NCBI RefSeq assembly: GCF_019263805.1
Contig: NZ_CP079195.1
Coordinates: 1,715,001-1,779,000 of the forward strand
Length of the DNA: 64,000 nt
From: Polaribacter sp. NJDZ03
Lineage (GTDB): Bacteria > Bacteroidota > Bacteroidia > Flavobacteriales > Flavobacteriaceae
Direction of reading: 5' to 3'
The notes under the pieces are model-generated. The model searched no databases, was not told the origin of the DNA, and was given only the letters and a program-made list of their open reading frames with translations. A program made the translations under genes and the position numbers. Of this stretch, positions 4,224 to 58,735 are shown piece by piece (positions within the stretch are counted from its first letter, which is position 1; every line of letters starts with the position of its first letter).

Positions 4224-5309
4224 TTATAAATTATTTATTATTTCTCCAACTTTCATATCAAAAGTATTTGGATTATATTTTAACATAGCTTCTTTATGAT
4301 TAAAGCCTTGTATTTTCTGTAATCTTTTTTTATCCTGAAATAAAATTGTAACATTATCAACGATATCATTAAATGACTTCGTTTTTATTAGGGCACCATT
4401 TTTTAAATCAATTACATCTTTTAAATAATTATGATCTGTAGTTATTATTGCATTCCCAAAATACATTGCCTCTATAATAGTCAGTGGAAAAGCTTCTGTT
4501 TTGTAAAATGTAGGTAAAACAAAAATAGAACTTTCTTTTAATAAATCTTCCTTATCCTTTCCTTGAACAACACCTAGATATAAAAATCTTTTAGGATATA
4601 ATAATTTTAACTCTTCTGATATTTCTTTAAATTTAATGCTTACGTTTTTTGTAGACATCAATTCATCACCCATTGGCAAACCCGCAATCTTTATAATTAA
4701 ATCTTTATCCTTATCTAATAACTCTTTAATAGCTTCTAAAAAAACAAAAACACCTTTTGAATATATTAAATTTGATAAAAAAACAAGTTGTTTTTTCTTC
4801 AATGAAAAATCAACTTTATAGTCTTTAAAATCTGACGAATAACAATTAGCAACTACTTCTATTTTTGAAGAAGAAAACTCGTTAAACTGATCTTTCATTG
4901 AGGGTAATAAAACAATGTTTGTATTAATATGATTGTAGCTCCACCTAATTAATTTCTTTAAAAAACCAGAATTCTTATAAAAATCTATAAAATCAGCACC
5001 GTGTAAATGATTAACAACTTTTTTATTAAAAATTTTAGCGAATAATAATAATTGAAAATCTTTTATAAAACCAAATTTACTTCTTGTACAAGTAAAATAT
5101 ATTTTATCAAATTTATAGAAGACGAAAACTATAGGCAAAAAAAACAGACAATATAATGAATTAATTATCTTGTTCTTTTTAAAATTAGTTGTGTTAAATA
5201 AAATTTTATCAGAATTAAAATTCTCAAAAACTTGTTTAAATGAAATTGACTGACCTGTATAAGGTTCTGGAAAAGGTCCAAAAAAAAGAATTTTACTTTG
5301 TTTATTCAT
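4224..5309 (-). CDS. Glycosyltransferase family 4 (GT-B)
   Basis: A 361-residue GT-B enzyme. The N-terminal half starts with FFGPFPEPYTGQS, a glycine loop often seen in capsule GT4 proteins. The C-terminal half carries FLSNLIYSKGV near residue 180 and the donor-binding E-x7-E motif in EAFPLTIIEAM near 275. A hydrophobic stretch near residues 55-70 may be membrane-associated. The start overlaps the end of the upstream GT4 gene by 8 bp. It should add one sugar to the lipid-linked repeat unit; the linkage is unknown. Confidence 0.88.
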   Translation of the reverse strand: MNKQSKILFFGPFPEPYTGQSISFKQVFENFNSDKILFNTTNFKKNKIINSLYCLFFLPIVFVFYKFDKIYFTCTRSKFGFIKDFQLLLFAKIFNKKVVNHLHGADFIDFYKNSGFLKKLIRWSYNHINTNIVLLPSMKDQFNEFSSSKIEVVANCYSSDFKDYKVDFSLKKKQLVFLSNLIYSKGVFVFLEAIKELLDKDKDLIIKIAGLPMGDELMSTKNVSIKFKEISEELKLLYPKRFLYLGVVQGKDKEDLLKESSIFVLPTFYKTEAFPLTIIEAMYFGNAIITTDHNYLKDVIDLKNGALIKTKSFNDIVDNVTILFQDKKRLQKIQGFNHKEAMLKYNPNTFDMKVGEIINNL

Positions 5310-24419: not shown

Positions 24420-24497
24420 TGGTGGGCAATGAGGGATTCGAACCCCCGACCCTCTCGGTGTAAACGAGATGCTCTGAACCAACTGAGCTAATTGCCC
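24420..24497 (-). tRNA. tRNA-Val (anticodon TAC), copy 1
   Basis: The minus strand folds as a full cloverleaf of 78 nt: acceptor GGGCAAT/ATTGCCC, D stem GCTC/GAGC, anticodon stem TCTCG/CGAGA with loop TTTACAC (anticodon TAC, reading GTA), T arm with TTCGAAT, discriminator A and an encoded CCA end. It is identical over the tRNA to the copy exactly 200 bp away. Confidence 0.96.
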
Positions 24498-24507
24498 TAA
24501 GCGGCTG

Positions 24508-24537
24508 CAAATATAACACATTATTTAGATCTACCAA
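24508..24537 (-). promoter_or_regulatory. Promoter of tRNA-Val copy 1 (TTG-N19-TATATTTG)
   Basis: On the minus strand TTG (24537-24535) is followed by exactly 19 bp and then TATATTTG (24515-24508), 10 bp before the tRNA 5' end. This is the Bacteroidota housekeeping promoter. Confidence 0.85.
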
Positions 24538-24584
24538 ATAAAACTAAAAATAATTTCATTTTTTTTTGAAATTATCTAAAAACA

Positions 24585-24615
24585 AAAAATCCTTCACATA
24601 AATGTGAAGGATTTT
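24585..24615 (-). terminator. Intrinsic terminator of tRNA-Val copy 2
   Basis: It has the same ATCCTTCACAT/ATGTGAAGGAT stem and T-run as copy 1 and is placed directly after the second tRNA-Val. Confidence 0.85.
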
Positions 24616-24619
24616 GCTT

Positions 24620-24697
24620 TGGTGGGCAATGAGGGATTCGAACCCCCGACCCTCTCGGTGTAAACGAGATGCTCTGAACCAACTGAGCTAATTGCCC
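24620..24697 (-). tRNA. tRNA-Val (anticodon TAC), copy 2
   Basis: A 78-nt cloverleaf identical to copy 1, with encoded CCA, anticodon TAC and its own promoter and terminator. The two genes with their flanks form a 200-bp tandem duplication. The flanks differ slightly (GCGGCTGC versus GCGGTTGC), so the tRNA bodies are more conserved than the spacer. Confidence 0.96.
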
Positions 24698-44452: not shown

Positions 44453-44526
44453 CTCCCTCTCAAGGACTCGAACCTTGGACCCTCTGATTAACAGTCAGAT
44501 GCTCTAACCAACTGAGCTAAGAAGGA
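44453..44526 (-). tRNA. tRNA-Asn (anticodon GTT), copy 1
   Basis: A 74-nt cloverleaf on the minus strand: acceptor TCCTTCT/AGAGGGA, D stem GCTC/GAGC, anticodon stem TCTGA/TCAGA with loop CTGTTAA (anticodon GTT), T arm CAAGG-TTCGAGT-CCTTG and discriminator G. CCA is not encoded, unlike the tRNA-Val genes. It is identical to copy 2 and is separated from it by the ISL3-type element. Confidence 0.95.
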
Positions 44527-44557
44527 GTTTGCGACACATAAACGTGTTTTGCGAGTG

Positions 44558-44587
44558 CAAATATAAATCTTTTTATTACATCCACAA
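44558..44587 (-). promoter_or_regulatory. Promoter of tRNA-Asn copy 1 (TTG-N19-TATATTTG)
   Basis: TTG at 44587-44585, 19 bp, TATATTTG at 44565-44558 on the minus strand. A 31-nt leader with an ACACG-TTTA-TGTGT hairpin lies between the box and the tRNA. Confidence 0.82.
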
Positions 44588-44721
44588 GTGTTTCTTCATT
44601 TTTTTTCACTCTAAAAAGAAAGTTTTTAAAATACTGTTTAAACTAGTTGAAAAACATCTATTTCTTCCACTTATACTTCCCTAATATTTAAGCATAGTTC
44701 TAAAATTCTTCAACTTTTAAG

Positions 44722-44729
44722 ATTGCTTT
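44722..44729. repeat. Left target-site duplication of the IS element
   Basis: ATTGCTTT, repeated directly at 46156-46163 right after the other end of the element. An 8-bp duplication is the rule for the ISL3 family. Confidence 0.85.
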
Positions 44730-44796
44730 GGATCAACACAAAAAGTTGTGGAGTAAAATAAAAAGGAAGAACTTTGACTTTTAAATTACTTCTATT

Positions 44797-45147
44797 TTGG
44801 ATACTTCAATTGAGCTTATTAAATTATTACTACCAGAAATACTTGTTAACTATTTTAAACTTACCAAACACGAAGTTAAAAATGAAGAACTCCATTTCTA
44901 TTTCACTGAGTTAAACACAATTCCTGAAGAATTTAAAACACTTAAATTAAGCTCTAAAGGATTTTTTCCAGAAGCCACTATTCAAGATTTTCCTATTCGA
45001 GGTAAAAACGTTTTTCTACATGTTATTAGAAGGCGTTGGATTGATGATAATTCTAAAAAATTAGTGATAAGAGATTGGCAGTTAGTAGCAAAAGGCACTA
45101 GAATTACTAGTGAATTTGCTGCTTTTTTAAAACAAATCAGTCTGTAA
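44797..45147 (+). CDS. ISAon1-type transposase N-terminal-region protein
   Basis: A 116-residue protein starting at TTG 44797. It contains LLLPEILVNYFKLTKHEV near residues 10-27, FFPEATIQDFPIRGKNVFLHV near 55-75 and RRWIDDN near 78. This matches the separate first ORF of ISAon1-type elements, which supplies the N-terminal, probably DNA-binding, part of the transposase. The second ORF is in the +1 frame, so either a programmed shift or an old indel separates them. No ATG and no strong ribosome-binding site are seen, in keeping with low transposase expression. Confidence 0.8.
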   Translation: MDTSIELIKLLLPEILVNYFKLTKHEVKNEELHFYFTELNTIPEEFKTLKLSSKGFFPEATIQDFPIRGKNVFLHVIRRRWIDDNSKKLVIRDWQLVAKGTRITSEFAAFLKQISL

Positions 45148-46123
45148 TAATGCTACAAGTACATCTGTTGTAGCAACCTTTTACGGAGTAAGCCCTAGAA
45201 ACTTACAGAGACAATACAAAGATTATTTAAGTGATTTTAAGCAATAGAACCAAAAACCACATGCTGAACAATGGTTGCTTTTTCCTGAAAATACTGGAAG
45301 CTATCTTTCCATAGATGAAACAGCATTTTCTAATGGAGATTTATATACTATCGTGACTAATAAAAATGCGAATGGAAAAAAAGGTGCTTTACTGGCCATG
45401 ATTAAAGGCACTAAAGCAGAAGATGTTATTAGAATCCTTAATAAAATCTCTTTAAAACAACGAAAAAAAGTAAAAGAAGTAACCTTAGACATGGCAGCAA
45501 ACATGGGGTTAATCGTTAAAAAATCATTTCCAAAAGCAGTACTAGTTATAGATCGATTTCATGTGCAAAAATTAGCTTTAGATGCTTTGCAAGAAATTAG
45601 AATTAAACATCGTTGGGAAGCAATAGATAAAGATAACGACGCCATAGAAAATGCTAGAAACAACTCCTTAAAATATGTTCCTAAACTACTACCAAATGGA
45701 GATACTCTAAAACAATTATTAGCTAGAAGTAGATACCTATTGTATAAATCTAGTAACAAATGGACTAACTCCCAACAAGAAAGAGCTGAAATACTTTTTA
45801 AAACTTATCCAGATATAGAAAAGGCATACAATTTATGTCAAAACTTATCCTGGATTTACAATCAAACAAAAGATAAAACCGTTGCCTTAACTAGACTTGC
45901 TAAATGGGATGAAAATGTAAGACAAGCGAAGTTTAAAAGCTTTAATACCATTGCTAGAACAATGTCTATACATTATCAGAATATACTCAACTATTTTGAC
46001 AATAGAAGTACAAATGCTTCTGCAGAATCGTTTAATGCTAAAATAAAAGCATTTAGAGCACAATTTAGAGGTGTTAGAAACATCAAATTTTTCCTTTTTA
46101 GACTCTCAAATATTTATGCCTAA
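45131..46123 (+). pseudogene. ISL3-family DDE transposase, interrupted by an amber stop
   Basis: The frame is open from 45131 and encodes TSVVATFYGVSPRNLQRQYK and then DYLSDFKQ before TAG at 45245-45247; the same frame continues as NQKPHAEQWLLFPENTGS and a 282-residue DDE domain to 46123. Related elements have a tryptophan at this point, so TGG to TAG is the likely lesion. The catalytic region has LSIDETAFSNGDLY, VTLDMAANMG, VIDRFHVQKLALDAL and, near the end, STNASAESFNAKIKAF with the glutamate. A restart at TTG 45275 would give only the second half. The copy is probably immobile unless complemented. Confidence 0.85.
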
Positions 46124-46155
46124 TTTCTAAATCCCACAACTTTTGGACTTGATCC

Positions 46156-46163
46156 ATTGCTTT
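46156..46163. repeat. Right target-site duplication of the IS element
   Basis: ATTGCTTT, the direct partner of 44722-44729. Removing the element and one copy restores a plain intergenic sequence. Confidence 0.85.
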
Positions 46164-46231
46164 TAACTTTAGTCTTACCCCCAAGCTAATCCTCAATCAC
46201 TAAAAAAATCAAAAAAAATTTAGAACAAAAA

Positions 46232-46263
46232 AAAAGTCTTATCAATAAAGATAAGACTTTTTT
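46232..46263 (-). terminator. Terminator of tRNA-Asn copy 2
   Basis: AAGTCTTATC/GATAAGACTT hairpin with T-run, the same as at copy 1. Confidence 0.85.
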
Positions 46264-46264
46264 G

Positions 46265-46338
46265 CTCCCTCTCAAGGACTCGAACCTTGGACCCTCTGAT
46301 TAACAGTCAGATGCTCTAACCAACTGAGCTAAGAAGGA
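46265..46338 (-). tRNA. tRNA-Asn (anticodon GTT), copy 2
   Basis: Identical in sequence and fold to copy 1: 74 nt, anticodon GTT, discriminator G, no encoded CCA. It has its own promoter and terminator. The duplicated block covers about 150 bp including the leader. Confidence 0.95.
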
Positions 46339-49269: not shown

Positions 49270-49277
49270 GTTGCGTT

Positions 49278-49304
49278 AAGGATTGAAATGACATCCTTTT
49301 TTGC
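49278..49304 (+). terminator. Terminator after sucA
   Basis: AAGGAT and ATCCTT form a short stem around TGAAATGAC, followed by TTTT, 9 bp after the stop codon. It suggests sucB has its own promoter or partial read-through. Confidence 0.6.
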
Positions 49305-49352
49305 TGTCAGTTCGAGTAAATTTGCTCTTTTGCAAATTTGTATCGAGAACAG
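49305..49352. repeat. REP-like palindrome, family B
   Basis: TCAGTTCGAGT, then AAATTTGC and GCAAATTT as a perfect 8-bp inner stem around TCTTTT, then ATCGAGAAC. The outer GTTCGA/TCGAGAAC arms pair with a 2-nt bulge. The arrangement GTCAGTTCGAG...TCGAGAAC is one I know as a dispersed hairpin in Flavobacteriaceae intergenic DNA. Confidence 0.65.
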
Positions 49353-49465
49353 AAGTAAAAAAGATATAATGGAAAGCCTGTTAAAACGCCCAAATAGTTA
49401 AAAGAAAATATAAAATAATTAAATAGAGTACCTTATTAATTTTGGTATTAATAAATTAAGAAAGC

Positions 49466-50733: not shown

Positions 50734-50822
50734 TTTGTAGCTATTTCCTGCTTTCCACTATATCTTTTTGCCAAAAAGGCAAAAAGGATGGAGTTTCAAT
50801 CAGGGCTAGACTTGTTTGTTCA
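50703..50822. repeat. Dispersed intergenic repeat, family C, copy 1
   Basis: It runs from CCTGAGCATTTGCTTGGG through GCTATTTCCTGCTTTCCACTA and a CTTTTTGCC/GGCAAAAAG hairpin to CAATCAGGGCTAGACTTG. The same framework recurs at 54047-54198 after the esterase gene, with a different hairpin in the middle. It is likely a small dispersed element that also supplies terminators. Confidence 0.65.
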
Positions 50823-56938: not shown

Positions 56939-57573
56939 TGTCATTCTGAAATGAGGCTTTTTGCCGATTGAGGAATCTAAATAATAATTGTAGAAATTCT
57001 AGATTCCTCATCGTTCCTGCGTCTCTCTGTCGGAATGACATTGGAACTACAAAATAACCTTAAAACTCAAAATGTCATTCCGAAATGAGGCCTTTTGGCG
57101 ATTGAGGAATCTAAATTATAAATACGAAAATTCTAGATTCCTCATCGTTCCTGCGTCTCTCTGTCGGAATGACATTGGAACTACAAAATAACCTTAAAAC
57201 TCAAAATGTCATTCCGAAATGAGGCCTTTTGGCGATTGAGGAATCTAAATTATAAATACGAAAATTCTAGATTCCTCGTCGCTCCTAAGTCTCTCTGTCG
57301 GAATGACAATTGGAACGATAAATTAAACTTAAAAACTAAACATGTCATTCCGAAATGAGTATTTCACGATTGAGGAATCTAAAACTATAATTATAAAAAC
57401 CCAGATTCCTCGTCGCTCCTAAGTCTCTATCGGAATGACAATTGGAACGATAAATTAAACTTAAAAACTAAACATGTCATTCCGAAATGAGTATTTCACG
57501 ATTGAGGAATCTAAATACAATTGCAGAACCTTTAGATTCCTCGTCGTTCCTGCGTCTCTCTGTCGGAATGACA
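56939..57573. repeat. Palindromic tandem array, copies 1-5
   Basis: Five copies lie at 56939-57040, 57073-57174, 57207-57308, 57343-57440 and 57475-57573, with start-to-start steps of 134, 134, 136 and 132 bp. Each begins TGTCATTCCGA and ends with its reverse complement TCGGAATGACA. Inside, GAGGAATCTA and TAGATTCCTC form a second stem in most copies. The 32-36 bp between copies are also similar (TTGGAACTACAAAATAACC or TTGGAACGATAAATTAAAC), so they are not CRISPR spacers. Confidence 0.95.
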
Positions 57574-57577
57574 TTCA

Positions 57578-57877
57578 TTATAAAACATCATTATTTAAAA
57601 AATCCCAATTCGGATTAAAATCTGAGATAATTTTATCTTTCTTTTCTCTCCTTAAACCTTTTAACTGTTTCTCACGTAAAATAGCCAAGTTGATATCCTC
57701 AAAAGTTTCATAATACAGTAAATAATAACAATTGTATTTTCCTGCAAATGATTTCTTTGCATTCTGACTATCAAAATAATGTTGAGAAATTCTTTTTTGA
57801 ATGTTGTTTGTAACTCCTATATATAAAACTGTTTTCTTTTCGTTTGTAATTATATAAATAAAGTATTGTTTAAACAT
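57578..57877 (-). CDS. GIY-YIG nuclease family protein, copy 1
   Basis: A 99-residue single-domain nuclease. The GIY part is FIYIITNEKK (residues 6-15) and the YIG part LYIGVTNNIQKRISQH near 18-33 with the conserved arginine. The family also needs YYET and the glutamate in REKQLKGLRREKK near 68-80, and NPNWDFL near 89; all are present. The stop codon is 4 bp from repeat copy 5 and the gene takes the place of an inter-repeat spacer. The protein differs from copy 2 only by Lys versus Glu in KKDKII/KKDEII. A role in moving or cutting the flanking palindromes is a hypothesis. Confidence 0.9.
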   Translation of the reverse strand: MFKQYFIYIITNEKKTVLYIGVTNNIQKRISQHYFDSQNAKKSFAGKYNCYYLLYYETFEDINLAILREKQLKGLRREKKDKIISDFNPNWDFLNNDVL

Positions 57878-57912
57878 TCTTAAATATAACCAAATATATT
57901 AAAAACTCAAAA

Positions 57913-58014
57913 TGTCATTCCGAAATGAGGCCTTTTGCCGATTGAGGAATCTAAATTACAATTACGAAAATTCAAGATTCCTCGTCGTTCCTGCGTCTAT
58001 CTGTCGGAATGACA
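57913..58014. repeat. Palindromic tandem array, copy 6, between the two GIY-YIG genes
   Basis: A 102-bp copy with intact outer stem TGTCATTCCGA/TCGGAATGACA. The inner right arm reads AAGATTCCTC instead of TAGATTCCTC. It separates the two nuclease genes and is followed by the same ATTCATTATAAAACATC junction as copy 5. Confidence 0.93.
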
Positions 58015-58018
58015 TTCA

Positions 58019-58318
58019 TTATAAAACATCATTATTTAAAAAATCCCAATTCGGATTAAAATCTGAGATAATTTCATCTTTCTTTTCTCTTCTTAAACCT
58101 TTTAACTGTTTCTCACGTAAAATAGCCAAGTTGATATCCTCAAAAGTTTCATAATACAGTAAATAATAACAATTGTATTTTCCTGCAAATGATTTCTTTG
58201 CATTCTGACTATCAAAATAATGTTGGGAAATTCTTTTTTGAATATTGTTTGTAACTCCTATATATAAAACTGTTTTCTTTTCGTTTGTAATTATATAAAT
58301 AAAGTATTGTTTAAACAT
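58019..58318 (-). CDS. GIY-YIG nuclease family protein, copy 2
   Basis: A 99-residue protein with the same motifs as copy 1: FIYIIT, LYIGVTNNIQKR, REKQLKGLRREKK and NPNWDFL. At the DNA level I count only about five differences over the 300 bp, and one changes an amino acid. The duplication unit is one repeat plus one gene, about 440 bp (57475-57912 and 57913-58353). The gene ends 4 bp from repeat copy 6 and starts 35 bp from repeat copy 7. Confidence 0.9.
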   Translation of the reverse strand: MFKQYFIYIITNEKKTVLYIGVTNNIQKRISQHYFDSQNAKKSFAGKYNCYYLLYYETFEDINLAILREKQLKGLRREKKDEIISDFNPNWDFLNNDVL

Positions 58319-58353
58319 TCTTAAATATAATCAATTATATTAAAAACTCAGAA

Positions 58354-58726
58354 TGTCATTCCGAAATGAGGCCTTTTGCCGATTGAGGAATCTAAATTAT
58401 AATTACGAAACCTCTAGATTCCACGTCGTTCCTACGTCTCTCTGTCGGAATGACATTTGTAACGATAAATTAAACTTAAAAACTCAAAATGTCATTCCGA
58501 AATGAGGCCTTTTGCCGATTGAGGAATCTAAATTACAATTACGAAAATTCTAGATTCCTCGTCGCTCCTGCGTCTTTCTATCCGAATGACAATTGTAACG
58601 ATAAATTAAACTTAAAACTCAACATGTCATTCTGAAATAAGGCCTTTTTGCCGATTGAGGAATCTAAATTATAAATACGAAAATTCTAGATTCCTCGTCG
58701 TTCCTGCGTCTCTCTGTCGGAATGAC
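58354..58726. repeat. Palindromic tandem array, copies 7-9
   Basis: Copies at 58354-58455, 58490-58591 and 58625-58726, steps 136 and 135 bp, each 102 bp. Copy 8 has TCCGAATGACA as its right arm and copy 9 TGTCATTCTGA as its left arm, so each has lost one pair. The last copy ends 9 bp from the recJ stop codon. Confidence 0.93.
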
Positions 58727-58735
58727 AATTGCTAT

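Follow-up and report, generated by a model that had tools for sequence, protein, structure and literature searches.

Small GIY-YIG nuclease genes lie among cognate GTC(A)-tagged hairpin repeats and may be the missing partner of CGTC/TGTC REPs

Why should two nearly identical nuclease genes stand where an array of palindromes would otherwise have short spacers? The window analysed here, a stretch of 64,000 bp from Polaribacter sp. NJDZ03, carries at 56939-58727 an array of nine palindromes, each 98-103 bp long with arms TGTCATTCYGA / TCSGAATGACA, and two GIY-YIG nuclease genes occupy the gaps after palindromes 5 and 6 in place of ordinary spacers (Table 1). The original prediction, two 99-codon GIY-YIG genes within a palindrome array whose products differ by one residue, is borne out by the ORFs, the Pfam matches and the protein comparison, and the embedding of the genes in the array is thereby confirmed. 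The coordinates also agree that each gene stops 4 bp from a palindrome (the preceding one), while 35 bp separate the gene start from the next palindrome in both copies. The duplicated unit of one palindrome plus one gene, put at about 440 bp, measures 441 bp and is in tandem; only the ordinary spacers, given as 32-36 bp, need correcting, to 32-34 bp. Folding of five of the nine palindromes as DNA gave z values of -3.9 to -5.1 (200 shuffles each). TGTCATTCYGA occurs at 62 sites in the 4.08-Mb genome, 18 of them inside the array region, and the reversed pattern at none.

Table 1. Nuclease genes and palindromes of the array in the window.
Feature	Position	Strand	Remarks	Fold z
Palindrome 1	56939..57040		inverted pair of TGTC-tagged hairpin units	-4.37
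Palindrome 2	57073..57174
Palindrome 3	57207..57308
Palindrome 4	57343..57440
Palindrome 5	57475..57573		adjoins 3' end of gene copy 1	-5.06
GIY-YIG nuclease gene, copy 1	57578..57877	-	99 codons; Pfam PF01541 1.5e-15
Palindrome 6	57913..58014		between gene copies 1 and 2	-4.78
GIY-YIG nuclease gene, copy 2	58019..58318	-	99 codons; Pfam PF01541 1.3e-15
Palindrome 7	58354..58455			-3.89
Palindrome 8	58490..58591
Palindrome 9	58625..58727			-4.34

Elsewhere in the window there are two Flavo-1 RNA matches, at 50740-50811 (-) and 49270-49387 (+), with 65.7 and 44.6 bits, respectively. Two pairs of tRNA genes, at 24423-24697 (-) and 44453-46338 (-), have equal scores within each pair and lie 200 bp and 1.8 kb apart.

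That homologues of these genes should lie nearer to palindromes than other genes do was also predicted, and the outcome was strongly positive. By our strict metric, a gene scores if an inverted pair made of a tetramer and 6 further nt, of which one may mismatch, lies no more than 300 bp away; all 256 tetramers were tried, with no tag presupposed, for 159 unique genes among 163 small ones. GTCA ranked first of the 256, with such a pair at 98 of the 159 genes, followed by the overlapping TGTC (78) and TCAT (75) and then by AAAA (73), the median being 12. It ranked first again in a second, Bacteroidota-wide set (39/52 genes; median tetramer 4), which stood at 44/60 until 5 genes already in the first set and 3 duplicates within the second were removed, and in which some of the 52 genes are neighbouring copies in one genome. 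The named-genome set holds 82 genes from 79 of 80 named loci, these being the best 80 of 545 confirmed places, with relatives in Alphaproteobacteria, Verrucomicrobia, Terracidiphilus, Melainabacteria, Coriobacteria and Clostridia. Of these 82 genes, 62 have a GTCA pair no more than 300 bp away, compared with 29 of 364 control ORFs, which are the remaining ORFs of 120 aa or longer in those loci (Fisher p=9e-36, a value computed on ORFs that within one locus are not independent). Among the 20 genes that failed the strict metric, some of them at contig ends, inspection by eye found one or more tagged hairpins to one side in 19, the sole one showing none being L114. The tag is focused at the gene: its density around the 82 genes (from the same best 80 of 545) falls from 3.63/kb in the nearest 250 bp to 0.06-0.51/kb at distances above 750 bp, and GTCA opens a 5-bp hairpin at 256 of 528 sites no farther than 300 bp from a gene compared with 237 of 2413 lying more than 1.5 kb away.

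These figures bear on the simplest alternative, in which the genes are passengers in repeat-rich intergenic islands, or the hairpins are terminators for any nearby gene. Genes and repeats are indeed both intergenic, and REP hairpins have been proposed as terminators in the sections drawn on here of Di Nocera, De Gregorio and Rocco (2013, PMC3733652), but the control ORFs, the tag ranking and the position profile disfavour such an account, as do the one specific tag and an enzyme-repeat pairing that is kept at non-syntenic loci (see below), and we consider it very improbable.

In the first control set, no GTCA pair was found at any of 21 GIY-YIG domains in frames of at least 370 aa, a weak control because flanks were measured from the domain and thus lay partly inside the ORF; of 24 large-frame hits, two (L102 and L106) had been moved to the small set, their long frame being read-through, and L188, with a 293-aa frame, was placed in neither. 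Relatives are encoded at 39 IMG/VR loci, 33 of them with a GTCA pair, where host DNA at contig edges is possible, and the 50,697 phage records contained no match. A count of 15/16 in the plasmid set was set aside as support because it comprises 13 loci plus Sphingobium orthologues, with one broken gene counted twice, and because GTCA also occurs in the hairpin loop of GC-rich repeats (L213, L216).

What is constant among the repeats is narrower than had been proposed. The palindrome originally named, TGTCATTC, is one of many cognate palindromes, and the shared part is GTCA, more widely GTC, as a tag followed by a hairpin. Among 462 tag sites near 101 genes, the preceding base was T in 317 and C in 80, and the base after GTCA was T in 412 (a stem beginning AT), the sites having been preselected by GTCA. 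The layout with the gene as spacer, seen in the window, is one of two: inward tags correspond to the window layout, with the gene in a spacer between whole palindromes, and outward tags around the gene to the other. The nearest tags pointed outward at 47 of the 101 genes, inward at 27 and in one common direction at 21; at the remaining 6, tags were found on a single side.

The other small genes of the same genome repeat the pattern with different sequences. A search for GIY-YIG domains returned eight matches, one of them a domain in a 454-aa frame and the others small genes, seven in all. By eye, each of the five small genes beyond the window sits amid palindromes of its own distinct sequence, with the words GTCATTTCGA.., GTCATTGCGA.., GTCATGCTGA.., GTCAGTTCGA.. 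and GTCACACTGA.., and an outer GTCA is common to the palindromes at all seven. Four of the seven, both window genes and those of L003 and L004, pass the strict metric and three fail it. A 400-kb sample, one tenth of the genome, contained 3, 3, 5, 5 and 0 sites of these five words and 1 of GTCATTCYGA, the reversed controls giving, in the same order, 1, 0, 0, 0, 0 and 0; whole inverted pairs of GTCA showed no excess over other tetramers in that sample, where A/T-rich words dominate. Among copies dispersed in this genome, information drops sharply just outside TGTCA in the two largest families (24 and 18 sites), the sites of the other families being too few or too clustered to judge such an edge. 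At 2424599-2425890 of the same genome there are four lone TGTCATTCCGA half-units (L020, L024, L027, L031) spaced 385-427 bp apart; the spacer between them is conserved and non-GIY, forming a separate composite repeat.

Enzyme and repeat are matched to one another. The pairing test covered 33 genes in 12 genomes that have more than one gene, all drawn from the 101 rows that pass the strict metric. The 6 nt following the tag were compared with those at the protein's nearest relative in another genome, and repeats were shuffled within each genome. For all relatives the mean was 5.30 of 6 nt in common, compared with 4.40 (sd 0.22) after shuffling, and for non-syntenic relatives only it was 5.03 compared with 4.27 (sd 0.20); none of 5000 shuffles reached the observed value in either case. 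Because the pairing is kept at non-syntenic loci, enzyme and repeat travel together rather than being simply inherited in place. The association, the GTCA tag and the pairing are, taken together, firm, and we hold them to be practically certain.

All 51 aligned nuclease proteins match PF01541, the only other families being T5orf172 (14 proteins) and GIY_YIG_2 (2), and Pfam found no HUH tyrosine transposase domain among them. Y8, Y19, G21, R29, H33, E69 and K70 are invariant in the 51 proteins and N88 is conserved in at least 90%; by I-TevI precedent, we take Y8, Y19, G21, R29, H33, E69 and N88 to have catalytic roles. In 14 of 17 hand-picked pairs, those with unsaturated synonymous sites, dN/dS was 0.03-0.21 (median 0.077), purifying selection that indicates a working protein being kept. 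No intron family reached its gathering score in the 64-kb window, and the nuclease ORF is free-standing. GIY-YIG enzymes are hydrolases, so that re-joining of cut ends would need host enzymes. Every NCBIfam match to the nuclease fell below the curated cut-offs. Anti-phage defence was considered and rejected, PADLOC having given weak matches only, for one of four proteins (6e-5, 9.7e-4).

A GIY-YIG match at E<=1e-3 was present in 130 of 198 Bacteroidota genomes, some of these matches being perhaps large-frame domains, and the maximum per genome was 22 matches in 3.0 Mb (G109:C31, L300), several of them clustered on one contig. Within the window's genus, the median excess of GTCATNCYGA was 5.4/Mb in 25 genomes with the small gene and 0.5/Mb in 11 without it (p=3.6e-4), five of the latter being less than 90% complete. 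Over 49 genomes related at class level or more closely, the gene-repeat link was weak (rank test p=0.023; Spearman 0.29, p=0.045). Two other genera showed no significant relation between gene presence and repeat excess (p=0.12 and 0.53); the pattern GTCATNCYGA detects some repeat families only. Repeats also abound where the gene was not found: GTCATNCYGA occurs 325 times in G060 and 304 times in G176, compared with 28 and 12 for the controls; the places read are mostly tagged hairpins, and the Pfam search found no small GIY-YIG gene in either genome, only domains in frames of at least 460 aa. Ten such repeat-rich genomes were searched, and a weak match was present in two, G141 and G238, in frames of 141 and 136 aa. 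Orphan repeats could reflect loss of the gene, a remotely related enzyme or some other driver. At three G060 loci (L367, L377, L379), GTCA-tagged palindromes of one family lie within the loop of a second family, GTCATTGC..GCAATCT enclosing GTCATCCTGA.., which looks like the insertion of one repeat into another.

A domesticated host enzyme, which would resolve or trim cruciforms of its local repeat family for the stability of the arrays and spread nothing, would accord with the strong purifying selection and the cognate pairing. Patchy presence among relatives, as many as 22 matches in one genome and repeatedly arising tandem copies look selfish rather than like housekeeping, however, and this account seems to us quite improbable. 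Tandem duplication recurs in G000, L072 and G015, in G122 (three copies), and in G206 and G209.

Mobility of the gene-repeat unit is suggested by comparisons between relatives and between copies. In A. lipoferum, the gene with REP dimers lies between sufB and sufC, and three relatives have no gene there. At the Sphingobium fnrL site the whole gene is covered in seven records and missing from four related ones, and three Sphingobium plasmids carry a GTCA-tagged dimer that a fourth, about 93% alike, lacks. Two copies 6.4 kb apart in G130 show no difference along the gene and the 3' hairpin, and their match ends just past TGACA; in a copy pair on two contigs of G194 the likeness continues about 25 bp beyond the tag. 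The Azospirillum, Sphingobium and Shinella comparisons revealed presence/absence differences, but neither clean insertion ends nor a target-site duplication, and the Rhizobium searches yielded no usable empty site. In L106, at about 5001-5285, the 20-bp sequence AGGAGCTGATCAAGAAGCTG stands on both sides of the gene-plus-hairpin unit where the upstream ORF ends, possibly a duplication made on insertion. The G194 pair (L288, L289) carries gene and repeat in a block of about 610 bp, 93% alike, whose ends, in our estimation, resemble integron attC sites.

The main rival is homing into REPs. GIY-YIG homing enzymes are well known, and the nuclease could be a selfish, free-standing homing endonuclease with the REP as its cut site, entering REPs already in place by way of break repair, in which case the REPs would be target rather than cargo and would spread by other means. 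Two gene-less Sphingobium records, TYG74 and TYG64, have a lone GTC-hairpin-GAC at the fnrL site where others have hairpin-gene-hairpin, as homing would predict, and REPs occur where no small GIY-YIG gene is detected. The other two gene-less relatives, however, show no hairpin at that site, and in the window's genus repeat excess is seen only with the gene present. Cognate pairing is compatible with homing and with REP spreading alike. We judge homing unlikely.

We favour, with a probability of roughly 0.65, the reading in which the GIY-YIG nuclease recognises, cuts and spreads cognate tagged hairpins and is the missing partner of the CGTC/TGTC REPs. In its favour are the association with its tag, the focus at the gene, the cognate pairing, the conserved enzyme under purifying selection, the repeat excess of gene-bearing genomes in the window's genus, the G130 copies that part just past TGACA, and the presence/absence differences in Azospirillum and Sphingobium. 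Against it count the repeat-rich genomes G060 and G176, the weak or missing gene-repeat link beyond the genus, the failure to find a target-site duplication or clean insertion junction, the need for host enzymes in re-joining, the 400-kb sample with its lack of a GTCA pair excess, and the three genes of the same genome that fail the strict metric. The unit in the window would then be a free-standing nuclease gene plus its cognate hairpin repeats, each repeat being a CGTC/TGTC-tagged REP, that is, (C/T)GTC followed by a hairpin whose stem usually starts with AT, often in inverted pairs with the tags outward. The nuclease would most likely recognise its own family's tagged hairpin and then cut or nick it, after which host repair or replication may copy hairpins, and sometimes the gene with its hairpins, to new places or to neighbouring repeats. 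Gene-less repeats would be the non-autonomous majority, as REPs are to RAYT, and tandem copies like those of the window could arise by recombination between near-identical flanking palindromes.

The link with known REPs comes from named hosts. Nuclease matches occur in 32 plasmid records, 13 of which we examined closely: Azospirillum lipoferum 4B (the sufB-sufC gene), two Sphingobium, three Rhizobium/Shinella, two Sinorhizobium, Novosphingobium, Aeromonas, Planktothrix, Spirosoma and Neisseria gonorrhoeae, whose GIY-YIG gene has CGTCATTCCCGCGCAGGCGGGAATC on its flanks. By eye, tagged hairpins at the gene are CGTC/TGTC in 11 of the 13 and CCTC in two (L214 and L216, Rhizobiaceae), and several proteobacterial loci have an 8-9 bp stem, a 4-5 nt loop and a CCA-like tail. 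According to the sections of Di Nocera et al. (2013) drawn on here, CGTC REPs are found in several phyla, carry a tag altered to TGTC or CCTC in many copies, have stems that begin with AT and are equated with Neisseria dRS3 and Rickettsia RPE-4/RPE-6; the same sections state that they flank no tyrosine transposase gene and "apparently lack a dedicated transposase". Our hosts overlap with those given there in A. lipoferum, S. meliloti, Sphingobium and Neisseria. As far as those sections describe them, the hairpins at the GIY-YIG genes are the CGTC/TGTC REPs of that study. Among the open-licence, non-preprint papers covered by title and abstract opening, none linked GIY-YIG to these repeats.

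A nuclease family bracketed by CGTC-type REPs, with enzyme and repeat matched, makes the transposase question of 2013 testable at the bench. If our reading is right, unrelated enzymes came to spread REPs on two or more occasions in evolution, and a role is at hand for a very common gene family whose annotation goes no further than "GIY-YIG nuclease" or "excinuclease ABC subunit C". A broader proposal, for which we regard the chances as even, is that stand-alone GIY-YIG nucleases power a class of mobile elements of the form hairpin, ~300-bp gene, hairpin, which at ~400 bp would be among the smallest self-mobile units; their gene-less derivatives would be the CGTC/TGTC REPs of many phyla (dRS3, RPE-4/6, GTCATTC.. 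and GTCATCCTGAGC.. repeats), a REP system independent of RAYT in origin.

How does this system compare with those already described? The nearest solved structures by sequence profile are UPF0213 GIY-YIG proteins (PDB 1zg2 and 1ywl; E 2.3e-12 and 1.1e-8). The Y, YxG, R and H of I-TevI-type homing endonucleases align with ours through a weak match to I-TevI 1mk0 (E 0.047), but the window protein is free-standing, of a type with 95-100 aa, and Pfam sees no extra DNA-binding domain in it. The original comparison with RAYT and REPs fits the anatomy: in REPtrons, the GTAG REPs with RAYT treated in the same parts of PMC3733652, a gene is likewise bracketed by its cognate family of short tagged hairpins in inverted pairs, with a repeat-specific enzyme and many gene-less repeats. 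RAYT, the REP-associated tyrosine transposase, is however an HUH/tyrosine enzyme of IS200/IS605 type and the REPtron tag is GTAG, whereas only GIY-YIG domains and a GTC(A) tag are found here, so that the window system works like a REPtron but is none. The CGTC REPs, as characterised in those parts of the paper, share with our units the CGTC/TGTC tag, the CCTC variant, the stem beginning with AT, dispersal in the genome and frequent dimers, which appear near the genes as inverted pairs, the orientation that we take the paper's "HH" to denote; their stems of 8-9 bp and loops of 4-5 nt differ from the longer, imperfect hairpins of the Bacteroidota units.
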